A stretch of 64,000 nt of DNA from Chroococcidiopsis sp. TS-821 (GTDB lineage: Bacteria > Cyanobacteriota > Cyanobacteriia > Cyanobacteriales > Chroococcidiopsidaceae). The translations under genes were made by a program, and so were the position numbers. The notes beneath the pieces were generated by a model. It made no database searches. It was not told where the DNA came from and saw only the letters and a list, made by a program, of their open reading frames with translations. Positions 2,636-54,087 of the stretch are shown piece after piece. Within the stretch, counting starts at the first letter, position 1. Each line of letters opens with the position of its first letter. The stretch covers positions 1 to 64,000 of the forward strand of contig NZ_MVDI01000005.1 of the NCBI RefSeq assembly GCF_002939305.1, in the 5' to 3' direction.

Positions 2636-3976
2636 ATGCAACCTTGGCTGATTATACTTTTACTAATTTCGGTCGCTTTTATTGTTTTTTCTACAACAAA
2701 ACTCAAGCTCCATCCATTTTTGGCTTTAATTTTTGCTGCTTTAGGTTTCGGAATTTTAGCAGGAATGCCCTTAGATCAGGTGATTGAATCAGTGTCTGAT
2801 GGATTTGGGAGAACACTCGGTTCAATCGGAATTGTGATTGTTGCAGGTATTATTCTAGGAACTTTTTTAGAAAAATCAGGTGGGGCGTTTACCTTAGCAG
2901 ATAGCGTACTGAAGCTAACGAAAAGAAAAAATGTCCCGTTAGCAATGGCAATTATTGGTTACATTGTGGCGATTCCTGTTTTTTGTGATTCAGGATTTGT
3001 GATTCTATCGCCGTTAAATAAGGCATTGACTAAAAAAGCAGGAATGTCTTTAGCCGTGAGTGCGATCGCCCTCAGTTTAGGACTGTATGCAACGCACACA
3101 ATGGTACCGCCAACCCCAGGACCCATCGCTGCTGCTGGATTACTCGAAGCGGATTTAGGGTTAGTCATTCTTTGCGGATTAGCTGTTTCGATTCCTGCTT
3201 TATTAATTGGTTGGCTATTTGCCTTAAAATTTGGCAGTCGTACGTATATTGACCCAGAACCAGAATTTAGCGAAGCAGAAATTAATCAAATTATGCAGGA
3301 AGGTCCTTCCGCATTCCAAGCTTTCTTACCGATCGCGATTCCAATTATTTTGATCCTTGCTAAATCGATCGCTGATTACCCAACGAACCCGTTAGGAGAA
3401 GGATTCTTACAAACTTTTGTGAGTTTTATTGGCAACCCTTTAATTGCTCTAATCATCGGTGTTCTGATTTCCTGGAGTTTACCGAAAAAATTTAATCGAG
3501 AACTGCTTTCGGATCGCGGTTGGGTAGGAAAAGCATTACTCGATTCCGCAGCCATTATTTTGATTACAGGTGCTGGTGGTGCATTCGGTAGGGTTTTGCA
3601 AAATTCTGGGATTGCTGAGGCGATCGGTAAGAACTTAGCTGGAGGAAATTTAGGCATTTTTTTACCGTTTATCATTTCCTCTGCAATTAAAACCGCGCAA
3701 GGTTCTTCGACGGTTGCGATTGTGACGACAGCAACCTTGCTAGCACCGTTACTCGGCGTTCTGAATCTCGATGCACCGCTCGATCGGGCGCTAACTGTAG
3801 TTGCGATTGGGGCTGGAGCGATGGTAGTGTCGCACGCTAATGACAGCTATTTTTGGGTCGTTTCGCAGTTTTCGCGAATGACGACTGAACAAGCATTCAA
3901 GCTACAAACTTTGGGAACTTTGACCGAAGGCGTTGCCGCCGGAGTTATTGTTTGGATTATTAGTCTTGTGACTTAA
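2636..3976 (+). CDS. GntP family gluconate:H+ symporter
   Basis: A 446-residue integral membrane protein of the GntP family, which imports gluconate or related sugar acids with protons. It is hydrophobic throughout with roughly twelve helices. Family features include the N-terminal LHPFLALIFAALGFGILAGM, the GIVIVAGIILGTFLEKSGG segment, PVFCDSGFVILSP, ATHTMVPPTPGPIAAAGLL, the SAIKTAQGSSTVAI motif and SHANDSYFWVV. An AGGA ribosome-binding sequence lies about ten bases before the ATG. The gene converges on rpoN (132 bp between the stops), so it is not in the sigma-54 operon but could be its target. The true substrate could be gluconate, a related aldonate or glycerate. Confidence 0.92.
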   Translation: MQPWLIILLLISVAFIVFSTTKLKLHPFLALIFAALGFGILAGMPLDQVIESVSDGFGRTLGSIGIVIVAGIILGTFLEKSGGAFTLADSVLKLTKRKNVPLAMAIIGYIVAIPVFCDSGFVILSPLNKALTKKAGMSLAVSAIALSLGLYATHTMVPPTPGPIAAAGLLEADLGLVILCGLAVSIPALLIGWLFALKFGSRTYIDPEPEFSEAEINQIMQEGPSAFQAFLPIAIPIILILAKSIADYPTNPLGEGFLQTFVSFIGNPLIALIIGVLISWSLPKKFNRELLSDRGWVGKALLDSAAIILITGAGGAFGRVLQNSGIAEAIGKNLAGGNLGIFLPFIISSAIKTAQGSSTVAIVTTATLLAPLLGVLNLDAPLDRALTVVAIGAGAMVVSHANDSYFWVVSQFSRMTTEQAFKLQTLGTLTEGVAAGVIVWIISLVT

Positions 3977-4108: not shown

Positions 4109-5464
4109 CTAATCATAATCGCGGTGACGACGCATAGAAGTGGATGCAATACCTGCGGCTTTACGGTATTTGGCAACTGTTCTACGTGCAATAGAAAGAT
4201 GATAGCGAAGCTTTAAGAGTTGAACGAGTTGTTCGTCGGTGTAGGGCTGATTGGGAGATTCCTCGGCGACAAGTCGTAGGAGGAGTTGTTGAATTTGTTG
4301 GGGTGTACGTCCGCCTACAGACATAGGCACGCACAACGATGCGAGGGGAATTGTGCGTTCGCGCGTTCCACACACGCGCAAATATCTACTACGAACGATT
4401 CTACTAACCGTAGCATTACTCAATCCCACTGATTGCGCGACAATTTGTTGGGGTGTGGGAATTAAAGCTAATGCATCTTGGCTATGTAAAAAAGCTTGTT
4501 GGCGTTCGACTAAAAACTGTCCGACTTTGAGCAAATTTTCTTGCCACTGATCGAGCGCTGTGAGTAAGCTTTGCGCTTTTTGTAGCAGCTTTTCTAAGCG
4601 TTGTTTATCTTGTGCTTTTGCTTGCGGTTGCTGTAACAAATGAATTGCTTCTTGATTAAGACAAAATCGCTGACGCGGTTGCGCGATTAAAGAAACTTGC
4701 CAAGTTTGATTGGCTGTTAGTTCGGCTTGCAAATCTGGCGTGACAATGGGTACATTGCTGTAACCAAAATTTCTGGCTGGGCGCGGTTCTAAAGTTTGAA
4801 TTTGCGCGATCGCCGCTTGCAAATCTTTATAAGTTATTTGAGATGTTAGTTGTAATGAACCGTTAATTTTTTGTAGTAATAGTTCGCAATTCTCAATTGC
4901 CTTCGGAGAATGACCAACACAATCAGCTATTTCTTCCAAGTAGTCGCGCGCTAAAAGTCTCGCCAGTTCCTCTACATCGTCTTGAAGTTGTAGTAGTAAA
5001 CATTCGCGTAACGAACGCGCGCCAATTCCTGGGGGGTCGAGACTTTGCAGGATTGGTACGCATCTTTCTAATTCTTGAGGACTCCAGGAAGTTCCTTGTG
5101 CCCAAGTTTCGGGAGTTTGTTCTAAGTATCCGGCACTCGATAACCATTGAGTGAGATAAATGAGTATTTCGCGTTGCTGATTTGAAATTGACAACGCGGC
5201 AATTTGTCCGTACAAATGCTCTTGGATTGTCGCACTTGCTGCTTGGACATCGTACCACTCTGGTAAAACGTCACCGATGAGCGAGTCACGATTGTCTGTC
5301 GGCGTTTCAATTAAAAACGGGTTTTCCTTCGCTTCGGCTTGCAAGTATTTAACGACTTGGTTGCGATCGCAAGACAGCAAGCGTATGAGTTGCTGTAACG
5401 TTGGATAAAGAACAGTATCCGTTTGCAAGCGCGTCGCTAGTGACTGGGTAGAAGCAATAACCAT
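4109..5464 (-). CDS. rpoN: RNA polymerase sigma-54 factor (RpoN)
   Basis: A complete 451-residue sigma-54. Sigma-54 directs RNA polymerase to -24/-12 promoters and needs an AAA+ activator to open DNA. Region I at residues 9-53 has the activator-interacting pattern (TLQQLIRLLS, then KENPFLIE). The core-binding region has SLDPPGIGARSLRECLLLQL and LEPRPARNFG. A helix-turn-helix region (QIVAQSVGLSNATVSRIVRS) lies near residues 345-365. The RpoN box is at 426-435 as ARRTVAKYRK, against the usual ARRTVAKYRE. It is last in an operon with a sensor kinase and an NtrC-type activator. HIP1 sites inside the gene suggest long residence. Sigma-54 is widely described as absent from cyanobacteria, which makes this gene very unusual. 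Confidence 0.95.
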   Translation of the reverse strand: MVIASTQSLATRLQTDTVLYPTLQQLIRLLSCDRNQVVKYLQAEAKENPFLIETPTDNRDSLIGDVLPEWYDVQAASATIQEHLYGQIAALSISNQQREILIYLTQWLSSAGYLEQTPETWAQGTSWSPQELERCVPILQSLDPPGIGARSLRECLLLQLQDDVEELARLLARDYLEEIADCVGHSPKAIENCELLLQKINGSLQLTSQITYKDLQAAIAQIQTLEPRPARNFGYSNVPIVTPDLQAELTANQTWQVSLIAQPRQRFCLNQEAIHLLQQPQAKAQDKQRLEKLLQKAQSLLTALDQWQENLLKVGQFLVERQQAFLHSQDALALIPTPQQIVAQSVGLSNATVSRIVRSRYLRVCGTRERTIPLASLCVPMSVGGRTPQQIQQLLLRLVAEESPNQPYTDEQLVQLLKLRYHLSIARRTVAKYRKAAGIASTSMRRHRDYD

Positions 5465-5497: not shown

Positions 5498-6820
5498 CTA
5501 TAAATTCCACTGTTGGCGTTTCTGGGCAAAGGTTTGAAGGTCCAAACCTAGGAGTTTATGCGGTTGTTGCGGATCGAGAAGTAACGCGCGACGAATTAAA
5601 TCTTGTTCGAGTTGCGCTAAGGCTTGCGCTAAGTTGAGTTCGGGTTGCTCGTTTTGCGTAAAAACGAGATGTTCGGGTAAAATGGGTCGTCCGCCAGAAA
5701 GAACAGCGGCGCGTTCGAGAATGTTTTGTAACTCGCGGACGTTTCCAGGAAACGGATAGCTTTTGAGTTTTGTCATCGCGGTTTCGGCGATCGCTAAACT
5801 CGGATACCCTTGCTTGAGTGCTATTCGACTTAAAAAATGCTGCGTAAGAAGTTCGATATCTTCTACGCGATCGCGTAAGGCGGGTAATTTTACGCGCACA
5901 ACGTTCAGGCGATAATACAAATCTTCGCGAAACTGGTTACTATGTACCATTTCTTCCAAATTTCGGTTTGTCGCAGCTAAAATTCGGACATCGACTGTGC
6001 GCGTTTGGTTACTTCCTAAGCGTTCAAACGAGCGGTCTTGCAAAACCCGCAATAATTTACTTTGAATCACTGGTGTGAGTTCGCCGATTTCATCCAAAAA
6101 TACAGTTCCACCATTCGCTTGCTCAAAACGACCAATACGCAGGTGATCTGCACCTGTAAATGCGCCTTTTTCGTGTCCAAATAACTCAGCTTCTAACAAA
6201 TGTTCTGGTAGCGCGGCGCAATTAACTTTAACTAAAGGTTTTTTACTGCGCGCACTTGTCGTATGAATCATCGACGCGACCAATTCTTTACCTGTACCTG
6301 ATTCACCTAAAATCAATACAGTGGAGTCACCTTGGGCGATGCGACCAATCAGTTTAAACACATTTTGCATCAACGGCGATCGCCCTAGCATTTCTTCGGT
6401 GTTTTGACCGAGTGTTTCTGCACTGACGCGGTACACTGGTGTTTGATGATGCGCAAGTGCTTTTTCGGTAAGCTCGACTAAAGTTTCTAAATCAAAAGGT
6501 TTGGTTAAATAGTCATAAGCGCCTAGCTGCATTGCTTCAATCGCAGTCCGGCTGGTGCCGTAAGCCGTCATCACAATTACAGGTAGTTCAAAGAGTATTT
6601 TGCCTAAGTTTTTTAATACGGTCATTCCCTGCGTGCGTGGCATTTTTAAATCGAGAAACACCAAATCAGGGCGATCGCCTTGTGCGATACCGTCTTGAAT
6701 AATTTTGAGTCCTTGACTGCCGTCTTTTGCTTCTATAACGGTATAGCCTTCGTCTTGTAATATTTGTGCCATTGCCTGACGCAATGGTTTTTCATCATCA
6801 ATAATTAAAATTTTTGGCAT
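5498..6820 (-). CDS. NtrC-type sigma-54-dependent response regulator (bacterial enhancer-binding protein)
   Basis: A 440-residue transcriptional activator. An N-terminal receiver domain has acidic residues DD near 8-9, phospho-acceptor Asp57 and KP at 107-108. The central AAA+ domain has Walker A GESGTGKE (172-179), the sigma-54-contacting loop GAFTGA (219-224), Walker B VFLDEI (240-245) and the RED/RLN region with arginine fingers near 298-304. The C-terminal 40 residues resemble a Fis-type helix-turn-helix (EQDLIRRAL, then LLGLDLQTFAQKRQQW) but lack the usual GNxxxAA segment. I chose the ATG at 6820; the longer frame starts with TTG. It overlaps the kinase stop by 23 bp, so the pair is translationally linked. 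An intact GAFTGA loop implies that it works with RpoN. Confidence 0.95.
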   Translation of the reverse strand: MPKILIIDDEKPLRQAMAQILQDEGYTVIEAKDGSQGLKIIQDGIAQGDRPDLVFLDLKMPRTQGMTVLKNLGKILFELPVIVMTAYGTSRTAIEAMQLGAYDYLTKPFDLETLVELTEKALAHHQTPVYRVSAETLGQNTEEMLGRSPLMQNVFKLIGRIAQGDSTVLILGESGTGKELVASMIHTTSARSKKPLVKVNCAALPEHLLEAELFGHEKGAFTGADHLRIGRFEQANGGTVFLDEIGELTPVIQSKLLRVLQDRSFERLGSNQTRTVDVRILAATNRNLEEMVHSNQFREDLYYRLNVVRVKLPALRDRVEDIELLTQHFLSRIALKQGYPSLAIAETAMTKLKSYPFPGNVRELQNILERAAVLSGGRPILPEHLVFTQNEQPELNLAQALAQLEQDLIRRALLLDPQQPHKLLGLDLQTFAQKRQQWNL

Positions 6821-8300
6821 ATTGTGAATTAGTAACAAACGCTACTCGGTCTAGTGGTAAGTACACACTAAACTTTGTACAGCCAGGGTGCGACTGTAAA
6901 TCGATATATCCTCCGTGATGCGTCACGATTTCATGGCTGATTGCGAGTCCTAATCCGGTTCCATCAGCTTTTGTCGAGTAAAACGGGTCAAAAATTCGCT
7001 CTTGTTGTTCTGGCAGAATTCCGACGCCGCGATCTTCTACCCATACGATTAAATATTGGTCTTGTTGTTTTACTCCGACTTTGACTTCGCCAGGCGGGAT
7101 ACTTGCTTGAATTGCGTTGAGAATCAAATTTAAGATAACTTGTTCAATGCCGCGACGTTGCAATGAAATTTCTGGCAATGGTGCCAATGCAAGGAAATAT
7201 GTCAAAGCTACATCCTGTTGTTCGGCTTGGGGGCGCAGCAGTGATACTGCTTCCTCTGCGATCGCTTCTAAGGAAACATTCACAAATTCTTCTTCTTGTT
7301 GGGTTTTATCGAAATAAAGTAACCTTTTGACTAATGTCTCTAAGCGATCTACTTGCTCTAATAGACTCGGAATCGGCAAATTTGTAATTTCTTGCCTGTG
7401 TAGCTGTCGTTTGACATACTGTAAATTGAGCCGCATACTGGCTAAAGGATTGCGCACTTCATGCGCCACACCTGCAACAAGCTGTCCTAACGAAGCGAGA
7501 CGATCTACGCGCCGCAACCGCTGCTCTAACTCTTGCCGACGCTGCTGCATTATATTAATTGATGCTCCGACTTGTCCCATTTCGGCGGGAAGTGGCGGAA
7601 TCATATTGGCTTTACCTTGTTCAATTGCTTTGATACCTTGTTGTAATTGCAATACCCCGCTGCGTAATTGGATTGTGATATAAACAGTCCACCCGACAAC
7701 GCACAAGACCATCACGATCGCGAGTGTTGTAAGGATCTGCGATCGCGCGTCAGTCGTTCGCGGAATTCGCTTCATTGTCCACACAGCACCGCCAAGTGGT
7801 AAAGGATCGGCACGTAGGACGACAATATCCAAGCGCGAGTAGAGTCCCATTTCCTGTGGTAGGTGCTGCCGACTTGCATTCGTGACTAATTCCAAAATTT
7901 TGCCTTTTTCTGCTTGCGGAATATCGCGTTTGGGAACAGGTCCGCCGTGAGTCGGATAGGCATAACCTAAGAGTTGATTTTCACTAAAGATGTAAAAACC
8001 ACCTTCGACGCGGGGAAAGTCACTCAACGCTGCATGCGATAACTTCCACAGATAGTCATCCCACTTCTTGCTCACAACGATAGGGCTGTGACTCGGATTG
8101 TCTTCCCAAAAGTGTTGCATCAAGCGGGCATTGGCACGCGCTAATTCGCCTTGCGTGCGGGCGGCGATCGCACTTTCGCGACTGTGAAATAATTCTGCTA
8201 ATAGCCACAGCGCGGCTCCACCCAAACACAAAAACAGCGCGATGAGAATTGTCAATTGTTGCTGAAGTGTCCAACGTCGCGGGACGATACTCTTGCTCAT
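6798..8300 (-). CDS. NtrB/AtoS-type membrane sensor histidine kinase
   Basis: A 500-residue two-component kinase. Membrane helices lie at about 15-38 and 188-211, enclosing an extracytoplasmic sensor region of about 150 residues (GGFYIFSENQLLGYAYPTHG) that I cannot assign to a ligand. A HAMP-like linker and coiled coil lead to the phospho-acceptor His280 in AGVAHEVRNPLASMR. The ATPase domain has the N box NLILNAIQA, VEDRGVGI and FDPFYSTKADGTGLGLAIS, the form typical of kinases that partner NtrC-type regulators. It is first in the operon, followed by the activator (23-bp overlap) and rpoN. Its signal is unknown; the neighbouring GntP gene suggests a sugar acid, but that is inference. Confidence 0.94.
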   Translation of the reverse strand: MSKSIVPRRWTLQQQLTILIALFLCLGGAALWLLAELFHSRESAIAARTQGELARANARLMQHFWEDNPSHSPIVVSKKWDDYLWKLSHAALSDFPRVEGGFYIFSENQLLGYAYPTHGGPVPKRDIPQAEKGKILELVTNASRQHLPQEMGLYSRLDIVVLRADPLPLGGAVWTMKRIPRTTDARSQILTTLAIVMVLCVVGWTVYITIQLRSGVLQLQQGIKAIEQGKANMIPPLPAEMGQVGASINIMQQRRQELEQRLRRVDRLASLGQLVAGVAHEVRNPLASMRLNLQYVKRQLHRQEITNLPIPSLLEQVDRLETLVKRLLYFDKTQQEEEFVNVSLEAIAEEAVSLLRPQAEQQDVALTYFLALAPLPEISLQRRGIEQVILNLILNAIQASIPPGEVKVGVKQQDQYLIVWVEDRGVGILPEQQERIFDPFYSTKADGTGLGLAISHEIVTHHGGYIDLQSHPGCTKFSVYLPLDRVAFVTNSQYAKNFNY

Positions 8301-8424: not shown

Positions 8425-10257
8425 TTACCACTGAATGCGGTAGGTTAGGCTCATAGTTCTTCCTCTAGCAGGTAAATTGAGCGTTTCATCCACAAAGCCA
8501 TCAAGTTGAGAATTCACTGTTTGATACTGCTCGTTTAAGAGATTTTGAAGGTCCAAAGTTAACTCTCCCTGCCCAATCTTGAGCGTACTAGAAAAATTCA
8601 CAACGGTGTAGCCATCGATCGGTAATGGGTCAGATCCGGCTTGAAATCCGACGATGCGATTGTTCACCTGCGATAGCTGCAAACGATTGCGCCAATTTGG
8701 CAGCGTTTGGTTTTCGATATACGCACTCAGCGTCACTGGCAAAACCTCATAGCTACTCAACGCTAAATAGTTGCCATCTCGGTTCGTGTCATTTTCACCG
8801 AAGTAGTAGCTTAAGGTTCCTCCTAGTTGCCAATTGCCTGATGGTTGCCAGTCGATAGCGGCTTCAATACCATAGTGACGCTGTGGCGCGCGCACAAGCT
8901 CAATACCACCACTGGGCGAAGCCGTGTAAGCTGCTCCTAAGTCGGATTCGTTGTAGAACGCAGACAGCGAAGCTTGGATTTGTTGCCAGTTCCCTTGCAG
9001 CCCAATTTGGTAGTAATTGACTTTCTGCGGCTGAAATGGTGTCAATTTAGGATCGATGCGAAAATCTCTAGGCGGATAGCTGAGGATGCTAAAGCCATAA
9101 TCAGGAATAAAGAAATCTTGCGAAAACTGCGCATAAGCTTGAAGCGATCGCGTCAGATGATAAACAAGGCTGGCATTGAACAACAGATCGTTGAACTGAA
9201 GCGCACCGCCAGCGATCGCATCACCGCTGTAACGGTTAAAGTCACTATCGTATAGCGGGATGTAGTTATTAATTTGCAGCTGTAGCCAGTTGTGCCGAAT
9301 TCCACCGCTTAGCTGCAAGCGATTATTGACCTGCCACTCTAGCGATGCAAACACGCCAAGACTTTCCAAATTATAGGGCGGTACATAAGTTGCTGCACTC
9401 GTCTTTTGAGCAATCTGTCCGTCACTAAAGTCATAAATTTGTTCGTCAAAAAATTCCAACTCAAGCGCATTTTTGGCTTGATACTCGTAGTCGGCTCCCC
9501 AGCGTAAACGAACGCGATGCAACAATGGCGTTTCTACTTGCAGTTGCCCTCCAATCAACTCGCTACCCGATCGCGTGCGGATAATACCTTCAAAAAAGCC
9601 GTCGCGATCGTCTAACAGCGTGCGTTCAACATAGCGCGATCGGCTGTAGTAGCTAGAAAGCGATACACTACTGCCTGCAAGATTTTCATTCGCGTAGCCG
9701 ATGCTGAGGTTGGTAGATGCTGTTCCTGGCAAATCTGCATCGCGCACTGTCACGCGGCGGCGAATTCCCCGCGCCTGCTGTTGTCCAGGCATTTGCAAAG
9801 AGTCGTCATCGGGGACAACATTAATACGAGCAAACTGTTGAACCGCGCGAACCGCAAACTGCAAGCGCTCGGTTTTGCTGAGATGAATATTGGCGCTACC
9901 AAACGCATCGAGTTGCGTTGTGTCATCGCTACCAAAGCTACTGTTGGGTAGCATATTCCCCTCAGCATCAAAAACGCTGTTGTTGAAGCGAGTAGAGATA
10001 TCAAAGCGGTAGTCCAGATTTTTTGCTGTGCCTGCAAAATATTGTCGCAAAAAGTAGTCAAATTTCTCTGCTGCCAAAATAGCCCGACCGCTTATCGGTG
10101 CCGTGACTCCGATTTCAGCGATCGCGGTAAAATTATCCTCTGGCTTTGTAGAGGTATCAGAAGATTGCGGTGCTTGAGCGATTTGCGTTGCCACAGGAAC
10201 TGCTGCTATTACCTGTGCAGCCGCAGACGTTGCCATAAATAGCACAAACGCTTCCAT
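8425..10257 (-). CDS. TonB-dependent-receptor-like outer-membrane beta-barrel lacking a recognisable plug
   Basis: A 610-residue predicted outer-membrane protein. Alternating strand patterns run from about residue 80 to the end, and the C-terminus (LTLDLQNLLNEQYQT, then SLTYRIQW with a terminal aromatic) is typical of TonB-dependent siderophore or vitamin receptors. The N-terminus is short: an Ala-rich possible signal region (MEAFVLFMATSAAAQVIA), a Gln/Ser/Thr-rich linker, then barrel. I see neither a plug domain nor a TonB box, and cyanobacterial receptors usually exceed 700 residues. It may be a shortened receptor, a plug-less porin-like barrel or a 5'-deleted gene. Its ATG directly follows the TGA of the methyltransferase gene, so the two are probably translated together. 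Confidence 0.8.
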   Translation of the reverse strand: MEAFVLFMATSAAAQVIAAVPVATQIAQAPQSSDTSTKPEDNFTAIAEIGVTAPISGRAILAAEKFDYFLRQYFAGTAKNLDYRFDISTRFNNSVFDAEGNMLPNSSFGSDDTTQLDAFGSANIHLSKTERLQFAVRAVQQFARINVVPDDDSLQMPGQQQARGIRRRVTVRDADLPGTASTNLSIGYANENLAGSSVSLSSYYSRSRYVERTLLDDRDGFFEGIIRTRSGSELIGGQLQVETPLLHRVRLRWGADYEYQAKNALELEFFDEQIYDFSDGQIAQKTSAATYVPPYNLESLGVFASLEWQVNNRLQLSGGIRHNWLQLQINNYIPLYDSDFNRYSGDAIAGGALQFNDLLFNASLVYHLTRSLQAYAQFSQDFFIPDYGFSILSYPPRDFRIDPKLTPFQPQKVNYYQIGLQGNWQQIQASLSAFYNESDLGAAYTASPSGGIELVRAPQRHYGIEAAIDWQPSGNWQLGGTLSYYFGENDTNRDGNYLALSSYEVLPVTLSAYIENQTLPNWRNRLQLSQVNNRIVGFQAGSDPLPIDGYTVVNFSSTLKIGQGELTLDLQNLLNEQYQTVNSQLDGFVDETLNLPARGRTMSLTYRIQW

Positions 10258-11586
10258 TCAAGGTTTTTCAACCATAACATACAAATCTGTCAAGAGCGTT
10301 GCTAATAAGTCTGTGACTTCTCGGAGTGCTTGCTCGTCAGAGACAGGCTCAAGCGTACAAGGGTCTAACGGTCTAATTTGTTGCCAGCGTTTTGCAAGTG
10401 TTGCTACCGATTGCGGTGCTTCCCATAGCGGTAGCAGACAAGCTGCCATGTTACCGTCTACAGTAGTTGTCTTTGCCCCCAAAATTGACAGGTATTGGTC
10501 GATCGCGACTGGACGATTGTGCCGTGCAGATGCTTGAATCGCAGCGCGAACCGTAGCAGTTTGTAATTGAGGATGCAGATAAACGCGATCGCTACTGTGA
10601 ATCGCGGGTAGATTTTTATGCAAAGGCAGTAGTGCGATCGCATCCCCTGTGGCGTGAGTAGACCAAAAATCAAGCAATCGATGAATTGGATGAATCAGTT
10701 CAAAAAGTTCGAGTTGCTGCGGGTAGGAAAGCATCGGTAAACTTAAGCCAATAAACGCAGGCATTTGCTCGATCGAACCAAAAAGTGGCGTGAGATCCCA
10801 TTGCTGCCAATTCACCATTTCAATCAAGCTGAGTCCTGCGGCTGCGAGCATATCAAATAGATTCGCGATGGTATAGCCTTTGTCTCCTTGCAGCAAATAG
10901 TTCATCCGAATCACTTGATTAGTCACGACACCATCAGCGTCAGGAGTCCAGGTTTTTGCTTTAAGATCCACCCAGCTAGGCATTGCATTCATTGTTTCTC
11001 GTACCAATGCTTCTTCGGATTCACCTGCATTTTCATGAAACAATCCCATCAATTCAAACATCTTTTGCGCGCGGTAAAAGTGCTGTCGCTGAATGACGCT
11101 GTGTAAATTGGCACGAATAATACCATCAGGCTTTAATACTGCTTTCATCGTTCGCAGCGCTTCTATTGGATCGGGCAGTAAATATAGCACTTCATCGCAG
11201 TTGATGTAGTCAAACTCTATTCCCAAGCGTGGTAGTTCTTCCGCTGATAGCACTTGAAACTCGATTTGCACGTCGCTCAGGTGTGAGACGCGCTTTTGAG
11301 CCATCGCAATCGACGCCGGTGACACGTCAATGCCAATTATGCGCGCCCCTGGATTGGCGATCGCAAGAATAAGCGAAGTTAACCCACTACCGCAACCGAC
11401 ATCAAGAATCACTTTATCCTGCGGATGCACGACGCGATGATGCTGTAAATAGTAGGGCGTAGCGATCGCCTGCTGGTACAGTTTACTAGGCTCCGGCTGA
11501 ACGGGCTGGTCGATGGGAGTAGCTGGATAAGGAGCCGTTTCGTATTGGTGAAAAATAGCATTGAGGCGCTCAATTGAAACACTCAT
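10258..11586 (-). CDS. Class I SAM-dependent methyltransferase with long C-terminal domain
   Basis: A 442-residue protein. Residues about 50-200 form a class I methyltransferase fold with the SAM motif VILDVGCGSGLTSL, the acidic residue in RIIGIDVSPASI, and FDYINCDEVLYLLPDP. The C-terminal half (about 250-442) is not recognised; it has no membrane segment and ends in LLTDLYVMVEKP. I chose the ATG at 11586 over a GTG two codons upstream; no Shine-Dalgarno sequence is evident. It is the first gene of a two-gene unit with the barrel protein, joined as TGAATG. The substrate is unknown; a link to uptake or modification of a metal chelator is only a thought from the neighbour. Confidence 0.82.
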   Translation of the reverse strand: MSVSIERLNAIFHQYETAPYPATPIDQPVQPEPSKLYQQAIATPYYLQHHRVVHPQDKVILDVGCGSGLTSLILAIANPGARIIGIDVSPASIAMAQKRVSHLSDVQIEFQVLSAEELPRLGIEFDYINCDEVLYLLPDPIEALRTMKAVLKPDGIIRANLHSVIQRQHFYRAQKMFELMGLFHENAGESEEALVRETMNAMPSWVDLKAKTWTPDADGVVTNQVIRMNYLLQGDKGYTIANLFDMLAAAGLSLIEMVNWQQWDLTPLFGSIEQMPAFIGLSLPMLSYPQQLELFELIHPIHRLLDFWSTHATGDAIALLPLHKNLPAIHSSDRVYLHPQLQTATVRAAIQASARHNRPVAIDQYLSILGAKTTTVDGNMAACLLPLWEAPQSVATLAKRWQQIRPLDPCTLEPVSDEQALREVTDLLATLLTDLYVMVEKP

Positions 11587-11779
11587 AATCACAAAAAATA
11601 AATAGTCTTGTTATCAAATGATTAATGCAGCTTCATTATGCAAGAGCTAAGGAGGTATGAAAGCAAAAGCGCTGAGTGCGGAGTTGATCAGTCTCACACA
11701 CTCAGCACCATTCCCCTAGCACTGCTTAGCTGAATTTTAGAAGCTTTCGCAATATCTCATTGAGATTCTATGCCATGCA

Positions 11780-12136
11780 TTACAAGCTTGGAGGTAGTGA
11801 CGGTGGTGGAACGCTACCTTTGGGAGGTGCAGTTCCCTTGGGTGGCGGTGGTTCAGTCCCCTTGGGCGGTGGTGGTTCAGTCCCCTTGGGCGGTGGTGGT
11901 TCAGTTCCCTTGGGAGGTGGTGGTTCAGTTCCCTTGGGTGGTGCAGTAGTTTGTCCTTTAGCGCCTTTAGCTCCTTTCTGAGCATAGAGCGTTTCTGAGC
12001 TTGCTGAATTAAATTCTGGTGTTGACGTAGAACGTACTGTCGCCGCAGCGGTTTCAGCAAGAAGAGGTGCAAGCGCTAAAGCAAAGAGCGCCCCTGCTCC
12101 CAAACGGAGAATCAAAGTATGAGCGAATCGACTCAT
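11780..12136 (-). CDS. Exported proline-rich repeat protein (PPPPKGTE repeats)
   Basis: A 118-residue protein with an N-terminal signal peptide (HTLILRLGAGALFALALAPLLAETA), a short linker, then a low-complexity tail with four or more copies of PPPPKGTE followed by PPKGSVPPPSLPPSL. The composition suggests an extended polyproline-II segment in the periplasm or at the cell surface. I do not recognise a family. The coding strand is chosen because only this frame gives a signal peptide. The repeats would make copy number prone to slippage. It is monocistronic, between the methyltransferase operon and a response regulator gene. Confidence 0.7.
   Translation of the reverse strand: MSRFAHTLILRLGAGALFALALAPLLAETAAATVRSTSTPEFNSASSETLYAQKGAKGAKGQTTAPPKGTEPPPPKGTEPPPPKGTEPPPPKGTEPPPPKGTAPPKGSVPPPSLPPSL
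11829..11946 (-). repeat. 24-bp tandem repeat encoding PPPPKGTE
   Basis: About four to five head-to-tail 24-bp units, nearly identical except for a few silent changes (for example TCCCC/TTCCC), lie inside the proline-rich gene. The period matches eight codons, so length changes would keep the frame. Confidence 0.8.
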
Positions 12137-12436
12137 GATGGAAGTCCTTCATTTGTCGTAAAGTACAGACCCTTCTTAGAAAAGCGAACTATTAGTTATA
12201 GAGTTTGGCTTTCCCAAAATGGGTTGTATGCGCAATGTGATGCGATACATAATTTCTCTTGTGCAAAAACGATGCCAAAAAAGATGACATTTTTGCATAA
12301 CCAAATGCCGTCACAAGTAACTAAGCTATGTCTAGAGCAAATTGTTGAGTACCAATACTAGAAACCACAGTCAATTTTGTAAAAAATTATATACAAAGAT
12401 ACTGGATTTAAAGACAACACTTACGCTCAGTGAGTG

Positions 12437-37243: not shown

Positions 37244-37783
37244 ATGGCTCAAATGTCGAAATCAATGGACGTACCCGATATGGGGCGTCGTCAATTCATG
37301 AACTTACTCACCTTTGGTACGATTACCGGAACCGCTCTAGGAGCATTGTATCCGGTAGTAAAATTCTTTATTCCGCCAAGTAGTGGTGGTGCTGGTGGCG
37401 GTGTCAAAGCCAAAGACGCGCTGGGTAACGATATTAGCGTCAGTAACTTTTTAGAAACGCACAATCCAGGCGATCGCGTCCTCGTGCAAGGACTCAAAGG
37501 CGATCCGACTTACGTTGTCGTCGAAAGCAAAGAAGCGATTGGCGATTATGGATTGAACGCGGTATGTACCCACCTCGGCTGTGTTGTTCCGTGGAACGCC
37601 GCTGAGAACAAGTTCAAGTGTCCGTGTCATGGCTCGCAGTACGATGAAACCGGGAAAGTTGTCAGAGGTCCTGCACCTTTATCGTTAGCCCTCGTACACG
37701 TGAGCCCAGAAGACGATAAAATTTCCATCACTCCTTGGACAGAAACTGATTTCCGTACAGGAGAAGCGCCTTGGTGGACTTGA
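37244..37783 (+). CDS. petC: Cytochrome b6f complex Rieske iron-sulfur subunit
   Basis: A 179-residue thylakoid protein that carries the high-potential 2Fe-2S cluster between plastoquinol and cytochrome f. The N-terminus has a GRRQFMNLL Tat-like motif and a single membrane helix. The cluster ligands lie in [10 protein letters not shown] and [12 protein letters not shown]. The Gly-rich hinge [14 protein letters not shown] precedes the soluble domain. Length is standard. petA follows after 120 bp on the same strand. Confidence 0.97.
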
Positions 37784-37903: not shown

Positions 37904-38887
37904 ATGAAAAAAGCTTTGTTATCAACAAAAGCGATTGTCAATACGCTGATCATAGCGATCGCTACTATTAGTTTCTTTCTCGCAAGCGACCTGGCGCTAC
38001 CCCAGGCGGCGGCGGCTTATCCTTTTTGGGCACAACAAACCTATCCGGAAACTCCGCGCGAACCTACAGGAAGAATTGTCTGTGCCAACTGTCACCTCGC
38101 TGCCAAACCTACCGAAGTCGAGATTCCGCAATCGGTACTTCCCGACACAGTATTTGAAGCAGTTGTAAAAATTCCTTATGATACTAACGTACAGCAGGTC
38201 CTCAGCGATGGTTCCTTAGGTGGATTAAATGTAGGTGCTGTATTAATGTTGCCGGAAGGCTTTAAGATTGCCCCTCCTGAACGACTTTCAGAGGAGATGA
38301 AAGAAAAAGTCGGCGATCTTTACTTCCAGCCATATAGTGAAGATAAAGAAAACATCGTACTTGTTGGACCTTTACCAGGCGAACAGTATCAAGAAATCGT
38401 TTTCCCTGTCCTTTCTCCCGATCCGAGAACAGACAAAAATATCCACTTTGGTAAATATGCAGTTCATGTAGGTGGTAATCGCGGACGAGGTCAGATTTAC
38501 CCTACAGGTGAGAAAAGCAATAATTCGGTTTATAATGCCTCTGCTGCCGGTACGATCGCCAAAATTGACCAAACTACAGATGAAAATGGTACAACTCAGT
38601 ATCAAGTCACCATCAACACCGATGCAGGTGAAACAGTGGTTGAGACAATTCCCCTAGGACCAAAACTGCTTGTCTCAGAAGGACAAACAGTTGCTGCTGG
38701 TGATGCTTTAACCGATAATCCGAACGTTGGTGGATTTGGTCAAGACGACGGTGAAATTGTACTCCAAAGTGCTACTAGAATTCGATGGTTGATGGCATTT
38801 TTAGCTGCAATCATGTTGTGTCAAGTCCTGCTAGTACTCAAGAAGAAGCAAGTCGAGAAAGTACAAGCAGCGGAAATGAATTTCTAA
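37904..38887 (+). CDS. petA: Cytochrome f
   Basis: A 327-residue c-type cytochrome of the b6f complex that passes electrons to plastocyanin or cytochrome c6. The signal peptide ends before [20 protein letters not shown], whose Tyr amino group ligates heme. The heme-binding motif is CANCH. The large luminal domain and the C-terminal membrane helix ([25 protein letters not shown]) follow the family pattern. It forms the petC-petA operon and ends in a clear intrinsic terminator. Confidence 0.97.
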
Positions 38888-48079: not shown

Positions 48080-48868
48080 CTAGGAAAATCGCTCTAAGAA
48101 TTGTTTCGTTCGAGCCGTTTTAGGCTGGTTAAAGAAACTGTGTGGTTCAGCCGTCTCAATAATTCTACCTGCGTCCATAAACACGATGCGATCGGCAACT
48201 TCTTTTGCAAACTGCATTTCATGGGTCGCGATAAGCATTGTCATTCCTTCTTGTGCAAGCGTCTTCATGACAGACAGAACTTCACCAACTAACTCCGGAT
48301 CGAGCGCACTTGTTGGTTCATCGAATAAAATCACTTCTGACTTCATAGCTAGCGCCCGCGCGATCGCGACTCGCTGCTTTTGTCCCCCTGATAGTCGCGC
48401 CGGATAAACATTCTTTTTGTCGAGTAGCCCAACTTTGATGAGTAGTTGTTCGGCTTGGGCGATCGCGTCAGCTTTAGAACGCTTCTGAACGTGAATCGGG
48501 GCTTCCGTGATATTTTCTAGAACAGTCATGTGCGGCCAAAGGTTAAAATGTTGAAAAACCATGCTGACACGAGTTCGCATCTTGGCAAGTTCTGCTTCGG
48601 TCATGAGAGTATCTTTCCCGCGACTTGTTTTGCGCCCCATCTGCGTGCCATGAATATAAATCTCTCCAGAGTTAGGAGTTTCTAACCAGTTGATGCAACG
48701 TAGTAAAGTCGATTTTCCCGAACCACTAGGACCCAATAAACAAACGGTTTCTCCTGGTAAAATCCGTAAATTGATATCATGTAATACCTCAAGTTGACCA
48801 AAACTTTTGCGCAAATGCAGTAGTTCCACCGCAGGTATTATTTGTGTTTCGACTCGGCTATCTAGCAT
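48080..48868 (-). CDS. Polar amino acid ABC transporter ATP-binding protein
   Basis: A 262-residue ATPase of the GlnQ/HisP type. Walker A is GPSGSGKST, the signature is [15 protein letters not shown] and Walker B is [14 protein letters not shown], with the H-loop in [15 protein letters not shown] chose the ATG at 48868, preceded by AGGAG; a TTG seven codons upstream is unlikely. It overlaps the upstream permease gene by eleven bases. It is the last gene of the operon that starts with the Rieske oxygenase. Confidence 0.94.
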
Positions 48869-49517
48869 AAATACTCCTAAAGGTTTCAACTTTACTTACA
48901 CATAGTTCAACCGTTAAACATAACAACCAATACAGCACTGCGGCGACAAAAAATGACTCAAATGGAACATAATAAGTCGATTGAATTGACCTTGCTACAA
49001 AAGTTAATTCTTGAATTGTGATAATAGAGAGAAACGCAGAATCTTTAATGATTTGAATAAATTGATTACCTAATACAGGTACAGAGAACAACAAGATTTG
49101 GGGCAAAATAATGCGTCTTATTAGTTGCCAACCTGTAAACCCATAAGCACGTCCTGCTTCAATTTGTCCAAAGGGTAAACTTGCCCAAGCAGAACGTAAA
49201 ATTTCCGCTATGTAAGCTGTGTTATAGACAACAATTGTCACAACAGCAGTCGTCCAATTGTCTAGTGTTATTCCTAATGAAGGCAGACCATAATAGATAA
49301 CATACGCCAGCATCAAAAAAGGAACGGCTCTTGCTGCATCGACAAAGCTTTGTACTGAAGTACGAGCAATTTGAGAGTGCGAAATTAATGGAATTAATAA
49401 GAGAATACCAAGCAGTAATGATAAAGCCATACCAGCAGTGCAGAGCCAAATTGTATTCCATAAGCCTTCAAGAAACCGAGGAAGATTATCAAAAATCACA
49501 TTAAATTGAATGCTCAT
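48858..49517 (-). CDS. Polar amino acid ABC transporter permease, second subunit
   Basis: A 219-residue permease of the HisM/GlnP type with about five helices. It has [23 protein letters not shown] near the start and the cytoplasmic EAA-like loop [27 protein letters not shown] overlap with the preceding permease gene implies coupled translation. With that gene it forms the membrane heterodimer. Substrate preference cannot be read from sequence. Confidence 0.93.
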
Positions 49518-50155
49518 ATTAATTCATACCTCTGATGCATTCGATAATCGATTGTGCGAGTTAAACGAGTAAAGCCAAACAAAAGAAGGATATAAAACAG
49601 CATGGCGATCGCAGTCATCGTTAAAGGCTGAAAATTACTGGCAGCTAACTGACTAGCACGGCGAGTTAAATCATTAATTCCGATTACGCCTACCGCTGGA
49701 CTCGCTTTGACAATGAATGTAATTTCATTAGCGATCGCTGGCAAACTAGCCCGCCACACCTGTGGTAAGATGATGCGAACGAATGCTTGATTTTGGGTCA
49801 TTCCAAAAGCTTTTGCTGCTTCAACTTGTTCCACTGAGAAGTTAAGGATGGCTGAGCGCCAAATCTCACTAATAAAGGCAGAATGATTAATTGCTAGGGC
49901 AATGCTACCGGCGACAAATGCGTCTAAATTGATACCTAAAAAGGGTATGCCAAAATATAGCCAAAGAACTAGAAGAACGAGTGGTAAACTGCGGATGAAG
50001 CTGACGTATAGTGTTAATAGTTGACTTACAATAGGAATCTTTTTAACTCTCCCTAAAGCGACAGCTAAGCCCAAAGGAATTCCGATGATAACGCCCATTA
50101 AAGAAGTGATGCAGGTAATTACCAATCCGTAGAACAAATATTCTAAATCTCCCAT
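49514..50155 (-). CDS. Polar amino acid ABC transporter permease, first subunit
   Basis: A 213-residue permease of the same type (YLFYGLVITCITSLMGVIIGIPLG, FIRSLPLVLLVLWLYFGIPF, QVEAAKAFGMTQNQAFVRIILPQVWR). It follows the binding-protein gene by 40 bp and overlaps the next permease by four bases. The pair, with a GlnQ-type ATPase and a binding lipoprotein, makes a complete importer. Confidence 0.93.
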   Translation of the reverse strand: MGDLEYLFYGLVITCITSLMGVIIGIPLGLAVALGRVKKIPIVSQLLTLYVSFIRSLPLVLLVLWLYFGIPFLGINLDAFVAGSIALAINHSAFISEIWRSAILNFSVEQVEAAKAFGMTQNQAFVRIILPQVWRASLPAIANEITFIVKASPAVGVIGINDLTRRASQLAASNFQPLTMTAIAMLFYILLLFGFTRLTRTIDYRMHQRYELI

Positions 50156-50195
50156 TTTTTCACCTTCTTAAAAACCACAAAGGTACAGAGCAAGA

Positions 50196-51068
50196 TTACG
50201 AGGTAGGGATTGGTCGATCGCCAGGAAGTCTAGGTTCATTGGGTAGATCAAAAGTCACTCCCAGCCACTTTTGTTGTAATTGTTTGAGCGTGCCATCTGC
50301 TTTAGCTTTAGCAAGTCCGTCATTGAAAACTTGCAAGATATCTTGTCTACCTTTTCGCACTGCCCATGCTGCATAAACTTTATCGCCTACGGGTTCTTGG
50401 ACTACCTCAAATACATTGGGCTTGGCTTTCATCACTTGAGTCAGTGCAACTAAATTATTCAGAACTGCATCAACTCGTTTGTTTTCTAAGTCTTGATAAG
50501 CTTCGGCAAAAGCGCCATATTCAGTTGTTCTTGCTGCTGCTTTTCCTTGTGCTTTAAGTTGAGGATTGACTACTTCGGCAATAATTTTGGCAGTAATACT
50601 CCCTTGTTGTACGCCGACTGTCTTACCTGCTAAGTCAGCAATTGAGTTGATCGAGTCTCCACGTCGTTTAATTAGGTAGTTAGTAATATCGGTGATTGGC
50701 ATTGTGAAATCGATAGCTGTTAAGCGTTCTTCTAGTATGGCGATCGCTGCATTTGTCGCATCGTATCTATTAGCAGCAATTCCAGTCAAAATTCCTTGAA
50801 ATGGTAAAATTTCTTGCTTGACTGTAAAAGGTGCATCTCTTGTCACTAACTCTAAAAGTTCTTGGTTGTAACCGACGTGTTTGCCATTTTGGAGAAAATC
50901 GTAGGGAGGATAATCATCTTCAGTTGCAACGGTGATTTCTTGCGTTCCTCCAGAAACTTGACTCGATGAAGGCGAACAAGCAACCGCGATGGTGAAGGTG
51001 AAAAGTGCGATCGCAACTAAAATACCGAATCGCAGCCAGTAGTTTGCGCGTCGAATTCTATAATTCAT
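50196..51068 (-). CDS. Amino acid ABC transporter substrate-binding lipoprotein (family 3)
   Basis: A 290-residue periplasmic binding protein. The signal peptide ends in IAVAC, a lipobox-like site. The mature part has ITVATEDDYPPYDFLQNGKHVGYNQELLELV, DFTMPITDITNYLI, AGKTVGVQQGSI and RVDAVLNNLVALTQVMKA, typical of polar amino acid binding proteins. The tail ends in a proline-rich stretch. Ligand may be an amino acid, opine or guanidino compound, judged from the neighbours, not from pocket residues. Confidence 0.92.
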   Translation of the reverse strand: MNYRIRRANYWLRFGILVAIALFTFTIAVACSPSSSQVSGGTQEITVATEDDYPPYDFLQNGKHVGYNQELLELVTRDAPFTVKQEILPFQGILTGIAANRYDATNAAIAILEERLTAIDFTMPITDITNYLIKRRGDSINSIADLAGKTVGVQQGSITAKIIAEVVNPQLKAQGKAAARTTEYGAFAEAYQDLENKRVDAVLNNLVALTQVMKAKPNVFEVVQEPVGDKVYAAWAVRKGRQDILQVFNDGLAKAKADGTLKQLQQKWLGVTFDLPNEPRLPGDRPIPTS

Positions 51069-51111
51069 AACAACTGCTCAGCAAAACTCAAAAAAGTTTA
51101 AAAAGTGTTGG

Positions 51112-52101
51112 CTAGCAAGTACCAAATTGCAGATTGATTTGCTTTAACCACTTGCGGTAAGCAATCGACATTTTGTCGCAGGGAAAATGGAATTCTTGTT
51201 GTAAATTGAGTGGCAGTTTCTGCGGACGTTGTGACTCTACCATTGGTATATCCTGCGCCATGACATCGTCTTGAAAGCGGCGCAATTCATCGTTGGACAT
51301 TTCTGGTGCGTAGTTTCTAGAAACACCTAGCCAAGCAACACTTCGAGTTTCCTCAACAGGTGTTACTGTCAAGAAAATAGAGAAATATTTTGTATCGTCG
51401 CCTTTGCGAAAACAAGCTACCAAAGGTCGGACAATTTTATAAACGTAAGAAACTGACTTAGCTTCTCCAGTACCTTCTGGATTAGGCTGATAAAAGTGAA
51501 TATCACTAGCGCTAATACTGTCTGCATCAACAGCTAACGTGTAATTTGGGACTTCTGGAAATTCTGGATCGCCGAGAAAACCTCGATGCGTAAAGGGAAA
51601 GTGCGCAATATCAACAAAGTTTTCGACAATACGAGGCGCACTAGCGTTAATAAAGTAAGGTCCACACTGAAATGCGATCGCATCTGTTTGCTCCCACTCT
51701 GCAAATGTAGGAATATCTTGCTCAGGTTCGCCCAAAGCTACCCAAATAAAGCCATATTTTTCTTTAACGTGATAGGTGCGAATGTTAGCAGTTTGCGGAA
51801 AAGAAGTAATTTTTAAATCTGCTGGAATGCGGGTACAATGTCCATCTGCATCAAATGACATCGCGTGATAAGGACACACGATCGCCTTGTTGCACTCGAT
51901 CCAACCCATTGACAGTGATACACCGCGATGCGGACAGCGGTCTTGACAAGCAACGATTTTTTCGTCAGTCCGCCAAAGGGCGATCGCATTTCCAAGTAGA
52001 TGAACTTGCAAGGGTCGATTAGCTTTAAGATCGTCGGCTAGCGCAACTACGTGCCATGCGTTATATAAAATCGGATCGTCAATTAGGGTATCACTCAGCA
52101 T
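51112..52101 (-). CDS. Rieske non-heme iron oxygenase, alpha subunit (N-/O-demethylase-like)
   Basis: A 329-residue oxygenase. The Rieske 2Fe-2S ligands lie in CPHRG and CPYH near the N-terminus, and the mononuclear iron site is in ENFVDIAHFPFTHRG. Length and layout resemble single-component demethylases such as VanA or NdmA, which oxidatively remove methyl groups, more than ring dioxygenases. No reductase gene is adjacent, so electrons must come from elsewhere, possibly from a ferredoxin such as that at 58666. It is the first gene of the operon with the amino-acid importer, suggesting that the importer delivers its substrate. Confidence 0.9.
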   Translation of the reverse strand: MLSDTLIDDPILYNAWHVVALADDLKANRPLQVHLLGNAIALWRTDEKIVACQDRCPHRGVSLSMGWIECNKAIVCPYHAMSFDADGHCTRIPADLKITSFPQTANIRTYHVKEKYGFIWVALGEPEQDIPTFAEWEQTDAIAFQCGPYFINASAPRIVENFVDIAHFPFTHRGFLGDPEFPEVPNYTLAVDADSISASDIHFYQPNPEGTGEAKSVSYVYKIVRPLVACFRKGDDTKYFSIFLTVTPVEETRSVAWLGVSRNYAPEMSNDELRRFQDDVMAQDIPMVESQRPQKLPLNLQQEFHFPCDKMSIAYRKWLKQINLQFGTC

Positions 52102-52136
52102 TGATTATGTCCTCAATGTTTTATGTTGATAGCTAT

Positions 52137-52259
52137 CTAAAAGAGGTCAAAATTGAAAGCTAGTTGAGTCAGTCCGTTGGGGGTTTCAAGACAGCGGAAT
52201 TGACCATCCATCATGTCCTGATTGACCATTGCTGTCGTTTTCAGCGAAACGATTTCGAG
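52137..52259 (-). pseudogene. Short 3' relic of an unidentified gene
   Basis: A frame on the minus strand reads LEIVSLKTTAMVNQDMMDG, then QFRCLETPNGLTQLAFNFDLF before a TAG. It looks like the C-terminal end of a real protein, but a stop lies just upstream. It fills part of the 315-bp gap between the Rieske gene and the regulator gene. I do not recognise the family. Confidence 0.35.
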
Positions 52260-52376
52260 TTATAGCTGTACTTTTGATTGAAAAATGCTAACAACTGAAA
52301 GCTTGTGTTCTACGTTAAAGAAAATAGTAACTTCAAAAAGTGCTTTGTAATACAATAGCAACTAATGCTTACAATT

Positions 52377-52391
52377 TTGCTGAAATAGCAA
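52377..52391. promoter_or_regulatory. Small dyad upstream of the Lrp-type regulator gene
   Basis: TTGCT and AGCAA flank five bases, in an AT-rich context 37 bp before the ATG. It could be an autoregulatory operator for the Lrp-like protein, but a five-base arm is weak evidence. Confidence 0.25.
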
Positions 52392-52428
52392 TTTTTTAGC
52401 GAATAGTTGTGCTTTTTTGAAAAACGCC

Positions 52429-52908
52429 ATGAATCAACCGCACATAGGCACCGGCGCACCCATTATGCTGGACAATCTTGACCGCGAAATCATTGGTCTG
52501 CTAAAAGTTGACGGACGAATGTCTTTTACCGAAGTTGCTAAGAAACTGAATCTTCCAGAAGCTACGGCGCGTTATCGAGTGCAACGCCTTTTGCAATCTA
52601 AAATTATCAAAATTCATGCTTCTCCTAATCCAGAGCATCTCGGTACACCGCACATTGTCATTGTTCAGCTTTTTGTCGAGAACAGCAAAATCGATGCTGT
52701 CGCCGCAGCACTTGTTGAGATTGAAGAAGTTCAGTTTGTCGCTGTAACGGCTGGACATCACAACATCGTGATTGATGTCAGTTTTGGCGCGCATAGCGAA
52801 ATGTTGGCATTCTACGCCAAGTTACACCAGATTCCAGGCATTATCCGTTATGAATCTCAAGTTGTCATGAAACTCCTGAAGGCTGAGTATAAGTATGTGC
52901 TGAGTTAA
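52429..52908 (+). CDS. Lrp/AsnC family transcriptional regulator
   Basis: A 159-residue regulator. The N-terminal winged-helix region has LDNLDREIIGLLKVDGRMSF, EVAKKLNLPEATARYRVQRL and the C-terminal RAM effector-binding domain has VQFVAVTAGHHNIVIDVSF and GIIRYESQVVMKLLK. Such proteins respond to amino acids or related compounds. It is divergent from the Rieske-importer operon and upstream of the creatininase gene, so it probably controls both. I chose the ATG at 52429 over a TTG four codons upstream. Confidence 0.92.
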   Translation: MNQPHIGTGAPIMLDNLDREIIGLLKVDGRMSFTEVAKKLNLPEATARYRVQRLLQSKIIKIHASPNPEHLGTPHIVIVQLFVENSKIDAVAAALVEIEEVQFVAVTAGHHNIVIDVSFGAHSEMLAFYAKLHQIPGIIRYESQVVMKLLKAEYKYVLS

Positions 52909-53252
52909 CGAGCACAGGAGAATTGAGAAATGTCAAGAAATCTGAATATGTATTCAAAGTTTTTCTATTTTAAGAATATCGCAATTATGTATACGCAAGT
53001 TTACTTGATTAGTTAAAACTAGAGAATCAATTACTATTTATCAAGTCTTAATTGCAAATAAATTATGTATTTAGCAAAATAAATTGAATAAAGTATCAAG
53101 GATTACATATTCTAGGTATTGAGTGCGTCTATCCTGAAGGAGACGGCATCAATCTGCAATGCAGACATAATTCGATACTATTTCGATTGGCGCGTGTCGT
53201 TGCTTGTTCAATGCCGTTGAAGATTGAGTCATAATTAAGGATTTTGCGTGAA
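52909..53252. other. Gene-free stretch before the creatininase-family gene
   Basis: This 344-bp stretch is AT-rich and I see no open frame, terminator or known riboswitch. In particular I could not find the conserved ACGR-loop core expected of a guanidine-I riboswitch. It should hold the promoter of the two hydrolase genes downstream. Confidence 0.35.
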
Positions 53253-54053: not shown

Positions 54054-54060
54054 TCTCGTC

Positions 54061-54086
54061 TTTAATCCTGACTTTTGACTTCTGCT
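54061..54086 (+). repeat. Dispersed intergenic repeat, copy c
   Basis: TTTAATCCTGACTTTTGACT then TCTGCT fills the 34-bp gap between the creatininase and agmatinase-like genes. It matches the copies at 5471, 27888, 55201 and 59298. Confidence 0.45.
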
Positions 54087-54087
54087 C

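Follow-up and report, generated by a model that had tools for sequence, protein, structure and literature searches.

A sigma-54 gene closes a kinase-activator operon with predicted -24/-12 promoters in a cyanobacterium

The window, the whole stretch of 64,000 nucleotides analysed here, carries on its minus strand, at 4109-5464, an intact open reading frame of 451 codons with an ATG start that encodes the sigma-54 factor RpoN. The protein displays the canonical sigma-54 domain order, with Sigma54_AID (PF00309) at residues 9-51 (2.6e-8), Sigma54_CBD (PF04963) at residues 73-271 (1.1e-37) and Sigma54_DBD (PF04552) at residues 289-446 (9.8e-31), all above the curated Pfam cut-offs. The RpoN box, ARRTVAKYRK, occupies residues 426-435 (4160-4189, minus strand). 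In known sigma-54 factors this element reads the -24 promoter element, and its residues Arg-427, Arg-428, Thr-429, Val-430, Lys-432, Tyr-433 and Arg-434 are invariant across eight cyanobacterial RpoN orthologues. A profile built from the window RpoN and the orthologue of Nostoc linckia matches solved sigma-54 structures at E 6e-40, with the helix-turn-helix arginine and the RpoN box aligned to the solved chains. Against the NCBIfam model TIGR02395 (rpoN_sigma) the protein scores 243.8 bits (3.6e-72) and stays below the equivalog cut-off of 277.35, which is a naming threshold; as the full model is aligned, this marks a divergent member that keeps its place in the family. The gene provides the single Sigma54_DBD match in the whole 5.23 Mb assembly. 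Its dN/dS of 0.16-0.18 against two congeners, Gloeocapsa sp. PCC 7428 (G430) and G419, indicates purifying selection, and the closer pair G430-G419, separated by few changes, gives 0.32. An earlier sequence-only reading had announced a full-length sigma-54 with a helix-turn-helix and an RpoN box at 426-435 and had proposed an HMM search as a check; the three Pfam domains, retained in that search, uphold the claim, and the open reading frame is real, although its minus-strand orientation had been omitted.

The flanks of the gene are those of a cyanobacterial chromosome. The 5' end of psbA (1 to about 180, minus strand), petC (37244-37783) and petA (37904-38887) are recognised by eye, and the rpoN contig measures 283 kb in an assembly that is 100% complete with 0.11% contamination. 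The order lipA, REC protein, repeat protein, methyltransferase, TonB-dependent receptor, kinase, activator, rpoN, gntP, comM and HIT protein is common to the window, G430 and G419. G430 was identified as Gloeocapsa sp. PCC 7428 through a 100% match to its 201,822-bp plasmid NC_020051.1; it belongs to the genus of the window and has a complete chromosome. Two HIP1 octamers lie inside rpoN against 0.014 expected from composition, while the window holds 89, and both HIP1 density and GC content of the rpoN locus are ordinary for the window. The closest RpoN relatives are cyanobacterial (55-90% identity), whereas identity elsewhere is about 30% or less. A contaminating or chimeric contig of proteobacterial origin would be an alternative source of such a gene, and such artefacts do occur: in the same search the match in G973 (L211, C25) proved to be a contaminant, a 20-kb contig at 73% GC, carrying genes of proteobacterial type in a cyanobacterial assembly, which would mislead surveys of cyanobacterial rpoN. 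For the window this explanation is refuted by synteny over three independent assemblies, one of them the complete Gloeocapsa chromosome, and with the window-typical composition and the cyanobacterial affinity of the protein its probability is close to nil. Thus the cyanobacterial host, the HIP1 sites within rpoN and the absence of assembly contamination, all asserted previously from the letters, hold.

RpoN is not encoded by a lone gene and instead closes an operon in the order histidine kinase, NtrC-type activator and rpoN, all on the minus strand and accompanied by -24/-12 promoter sites. The kinase stop overlaps the activator start and the activator ends 33 nt upstream of rpoN. The activator (5498-6820, 440 residues; an upstream TTG at 6838 is a less likely start) combines a REC domain (PF00072, 1.3e-29) with an AAA+ domain (PF00158, 1e-72), and its Walker motifs and the GAFTGA motif of the sigma-54 contact loop (6149-6166, minus strand), which is invariant in nine orthologues, place it among the bEBPs of the NtrC group. 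It is the sole strong match to the sigma-54-activator domain in the genome; the remaining PF00158 matches, at E 6e-13 or weaker, are taken as general AAA+ proteins. In the position of a Fis-type DNA-binding domain it carries a conserved tail of 46 residues (5501-5638, minus strand), in which Pfam detects no helix-turn-helix at E<1. This tail is absent entirely from the N. linckia/G523 type of the module formed by the three genes. The missing Fis-type domain bars the name NtrC but not the function of activator, since exceptions such as FlgR are known, and equivalog scores likewise fall short for NtrC (443 against a cut-off of 558.6), ZraR (387 of 760) and AtoC (438 of 714).

The sensor kinase (6798-8300, minus strand, 500 residues) comprises a transmembrane segment, a predicted periplasmic domain, a second transmembrane segment, HisKA with His-280 and HATPase. 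The periplasmic part is predicted as an alpha/beta domain at about residues 42-180 in an AlphaFold model of low confidence (pLDDT 64). In fold comparison the catalytic part resembles the ZraS structure, the matches being confined to catalytic domains, and a search for the ligand by this route was dropped for that reason and for the weakness of the model. Neither ZraS (175 of 479) nor AtoS (261 of 646) reaches its equivalog cut-off. Against the congeners dN/dS is 0.10-0.11 for the kinase and 0.07-0.09 for the activator. The arrangement of kinase, regulator and full-length rpoN recurs patchily in the order, being present in seven further genomes and at the majority of 20 additional loci. Exactly one strong activator match, always beside rpoN, was found in nine of nine module-bearing genomes (including G657, with a truncated rpoN) and in none of nine others (including G125, with an rpoN fragment).

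Upstream of the kinase lie a TonB-dependent receptor gene (8425-10257) and a SAM-dependent methyltransferase gene (10258-11592), both on the minus strand, co-linear and, with the other neighbours on this side, conserved in G430 and G419. The receptor, a barrel in which no plug domain was detected, directly follows the methyltransferase, and the two form an unusual pair between the possible sigma-54 promoter and the kinase. On the other side, a GntP-family permease gene (2636-3976, plus strand) converges with rpoN; no -24/-12 site precedes it and it was rejected as a regulon target. In G419 gntP (L031:2502-3842) is split into two open reading frames of 287 and 138 residues and may be broken or mis-assembled. 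Further along, genes for an amino-acid-type ABC transporter, a Rieske protein, an Lrp-like regulator and creatininase-like and agmatinase/ureohydrolase-like proteins are recognised by eye at 48080-55068 and may form a cluster for uptake and hydrolysis of guanidino compounds.

The candidate -24/-12 promoter of the window, TGGCATCGTTTTTGCA, lies at 12262-12277 on the minus strand and is conserved in both congeners, where the block TTTTTGGCATCNTTTTTGCAC is retained while the surrounding sequence diverges. It is the one exact match to TGGCAYN5TTGCW in the 64 kb, a count not significant alone, as 22 of 100 shuffles also contain one. The stricter TGGCAYN4TTTGCA has five exact matches in the genome, of which this alone is intergenic. 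A loose genome scan allowing one mismatch returned 284 sites and was set aside, since the reversed pattern, with 81 sites, is a poor control. Directly downstream lies the predicted target, a secreted protein of 118 residues with PPPPKGTE tandem repeats (11780-12136, minus strand), whose ATG is 126 nt from the site; distances in relatives are mostly 27-52 nt, with 119-166 nt also seen. The number of PPPPKG(T/V)E repeats varies between the three species of the genus, the proteins measuring 118, 143 and 119 residues. A terminator-like hairpin of -22.0 kcal/mol followed by a T-rich stretch (11660-11706, minus strand) suggests that the transcript is probably monocistronic, and disfavours a single sigma-54 transcript running from 12277 through to rpoN. 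The MFS target and the full-length OB-fold protein described below are absent from the window's genus, where the OB-fold protein gives N-terminal matches only; with one convincing promoter, the regulon there may be tiny or different.

At the module loci of relatives near-perfect -24/-12 sites (TGGCACGATTTTTGCA) are found upstream of the kinase (in several genomes), of a gene that diverges from the kinase and encodes an OB-fold membrane protein, and of transporter genes, with GG at -24 and GC at -12. The transporter is an MFS protein, often encoded beside a CitMHS-type permease; this type of MFS occurs only in genomes with the module and is likewise fragmentary where the module itself is fragmentary. 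Structural identification of the OB-fold protein was abandoned, the low-confidence model returning generic OB-fold matches only. At a second locus of G523 (L099, C175) OB-fold proteins with proline/glycine-rich tails are encoded together with a YdcZ exporter, a LipP1-type lipase, an OFeT-like permease, an MFS protein and a CitMHS-type permease; predicted sites precede the OB protein/YdcZ/LipP1 cluster and the OFeT-like permease, and G643 has a site ahead of its YdcZ gene. Sigma-54 could be real while these sites arise by chance or belong to another factor, the activator acting on something else, and every cyanobacterial genome does hold a few matches: exact TGGCAYN4TTTGCA occurs 2-7 times per genome with or without rpoN. 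Promoter placement, however, is restricted to module-bearing genomes, where it applies to 18 of 44 exact sites; the other genomes have 26 sites and none so placed (Fisher p 5e-5). That p is optimistic, since the controls are interrelated, and the motif was picked after inspection of these same loci. Seventeen of the 18 follow an automatic rule, and the last, L035 8218, had been called coding because the start of an open reading frame was set too far upstream. Up to three of a genome's 3-7 exact sites cluster at the module locus (p down to 1.7e-8), the spacing between GG and GC is the same across diverged loci, and the -24 element is mutated in G005, a genome without rpoN. Alignment of 57 intergenic sites gives TTTGGCAYGATTTTTGCAC, with sigma-54-typical bases also at positions that the search left free. 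Chance or foreign sites are therefore a very improbable account.

Sigma-54 was absent from 29 of 29 cyanobacteria in 2011 (PMC3162934), and in 2024 the group was still said to possess sigma-70-encoding genes only (PMC11119718). The earlier statement that cyanobacteria are described as lacking the factor is faithful to these papers and overlooks the exceptions named in 2025, when a single sentence listed rpoN in Gloeocapsa PCC 7428 (Glo7428_4143) and Leptolyngbya O-77 (O77CONTIG1_04029) (PMC12316311). An RpoN family was also reported in Thermoleptolyngbya in 2024 (PMC10775510). These papers state presence only. Glo7428_4143 is almost certainly the direct orthologue of the window gene, as it is reported as the rpoN of the strain to which G430 belongs, and the RpoN proteins of the window and G430 are 89.6% identical. 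In the open-access literature searched no description was found of the operon, the activator pairing, the promoters or the spread of cyanobacterial sigma-54.

A two-sequence RpoN profile is positive in 9 of 391 genomes of the order, and an eight-sequence profile in 24 of 218 genomes of family f5 (the family of G645), or 23 after removal of the contaminant G973; 19 of these 23 copies are full-length and four are broken. A phylum-wide sample of 386 contains one other genome with rpoN, and outside the order none was found in the phylum-wide and class-wide samples. Rarity thus applies to the phylum but not to this family, and the initial interpretation is partly supported, being right about gene and host and incomplete about system and distribution. 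Weak PF04552 matches in the 1.7-1.9 Mb genomes of group f31 disappeared with the cyanobacterial RpoN profile. Viral contigs yielded no relative, and plasmids only distant RpoN proteins of other phyla, with no plasmid carrier found.

Several loci display the module in decay. G657 keeps the kinase, the activator and three promoters, with an rpoN reduced to its N-terminal 200 residues by loss of the C-terminal half; module genes are split or truncated in G1017 and G1001; and G125 retains just a C-terminal rpoN piece beside the same permease. In G005, of the window's own family, three traces follow one another in the syntenic gap between the REC protein gene and comM: the promoter region, in which TGGCAT has become TGACAT, a deletion junction and the last rpoN codons (RRTVAKYRKLAGIPPTHIHRH). 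They place the locus formerly in this genome. G1002 (L202) has a full-length rpoN and an MFS promoter site, but the 9 kb upstream contain neither kinase nor activator. The module might by analogy be a relic in the window's genus, inherited or acquired, no longer working and heading for loss as in several relatives. The single clear site left in the genus, the eroded locus of G005, the four broken copies among 23, the split gntP of G419 and the rpoN dN/dS of 0.32 between G430 and G419 all lean that way. Against them stand three open reading frames intact in three species at dN/dS 0.07-0.18 relative to the window's species, invariant catalytic and DNA-contact motifs and a promoter core kept amid diverging surroundings, and a relic is consequently unlikely.

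All eight cyanobacterial RpoN proteins in the tree group as one clade (100/100), whose stem of 2.54 changes per site separates it from a narrow outgroup of Proteobacteria and Firmicutes taken from plasmid records. The tree suggested beforehand delivers a single cyanobacterial clade (8/8) in place of the anticipated nesting in another phylum, and its long stem and narrow outgroup are compatible with various donor phyla. On the concatenated kinase-activator-sigma tree G523 groups with N. linckia (100/100) and monophyly of the window's family (f1) is rejected (p-AU 1.4e-7). On a 24-sequence RpoN tree the members of genus g17 fall into two widely separated module types (p-AU 1e-61), and a single change suffices to explain presence and absence of the activator tail. 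This conflict with taxonomy points to transfer between cyanobacteria. The simplest history is lateral transfer between cyanobacteria combined with loss; ancient duplication followed by many losses is a possible alternative.

Gene content, domains, co-occurrence, promoters, constraint, decay and tree conflict favour a self-contained cyanobacterial sigma-54 switch, in which kinase, activator and RpoN serve few promoters and which derives from a shared ancestor, with lateral passage and repeated loss (probability roughly 0.85). The membrane kinase would sense an envelope or extracellular signal and phosphorylate the adjoining activator, which would touch the sigma-54 holoenzyme through its GAFTGA loop, hydrolyse ATP and open the closed complex at a very small number of -24/-12 promoters. 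Lacking a recognisable DNA-binding domain and being the only one in the cell, the activator probably works from solution or without sequence specificity, in the manner of FlgR-type activators. The promoters of most relatives would drive transporters and the OB-fold membrane protein, and those of some also the kinase operon; for the window's genus a single clear promoter is left, and it would drive the secreted repeat protein. From sequence we infer phosphotransfer, RpoN binding to the core polymerase, transcription, signal and physiology. The cyanobacterial core polymerase has a split beta' subunit (gamma and beta') with a large insertion, with which RpoN may be incompatible; this counts against the switch, as do the score below the TIGR02395 cut-off, the 126 nt between site and ATG and the lone window match. 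More broadly, we lean towards a laterally moving cassette, acquired and discarded whole, of kinase, activator without DNA-binding domain, sigma-54 and promoters of neighbouring transport genes. It would install in photosynthetic bacteria with split beta' a second transcription class orthogonal to sigma-70.

If the switch works in Nostoc-type and Gloeocapsa-type cyanobacteria, the sigma-70-only view is overturned and an activator-gated promoter class is added to a group used in synthetic biology, for which an orthogonal system based on sigma-54 has been desired (PMC6843473). The intact, broken and erased copies form a natural genome series in which to study how an entire sigma factor is gained and lost, and the tiny predicted regulons make function directly testable in the completely sequenced Gloeocapsa PCC 7428. 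Transporters and envelope proteins as predicted targets agree with the link generally drawn between sigma-54 and the cell exterior (PMC3162934).

With canonical sigma-54 (RpoN/SigL) the window protein shares region I, the core-binding and DNA-binding domains, the helix-turn-helix, the RpoN box and the -24/-12 promoter type. It differs in its host, in an identity of at most about 30% with the proteins examined from Proteobacteria and Firmicutes, in its very long stem and in its sub-threshold TIGR02395 score. AtoSC and ZraSR similarly pair a membrane kinase with an AAA+ regulator and are among the best NCBIfam matches (NtrC, AtoC and ZraR for the activator, AtoS and ZraS for the kinase); in contrast, the window system has rpoN in the same operon, no detectable DNA-binding domain and other predicted targets. 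It likewise departs from NtrB/NtrC nitrogen regulation in its predicted targets, transporters and envelope proteins. FlgR-type activators of Helicobacter and Campylobacter, one per genome, have no usable DNA-binding domain, a likeness accompanied by a match of the FlgRCampy model to the window activator, and Chlamydia and Borrelia have one sigma-54 and one activator per genome. By comparison, the window system displays no flagellar link, is predicted to target transporters and envelope proteins, and unites activator and sigma factor in one operon.
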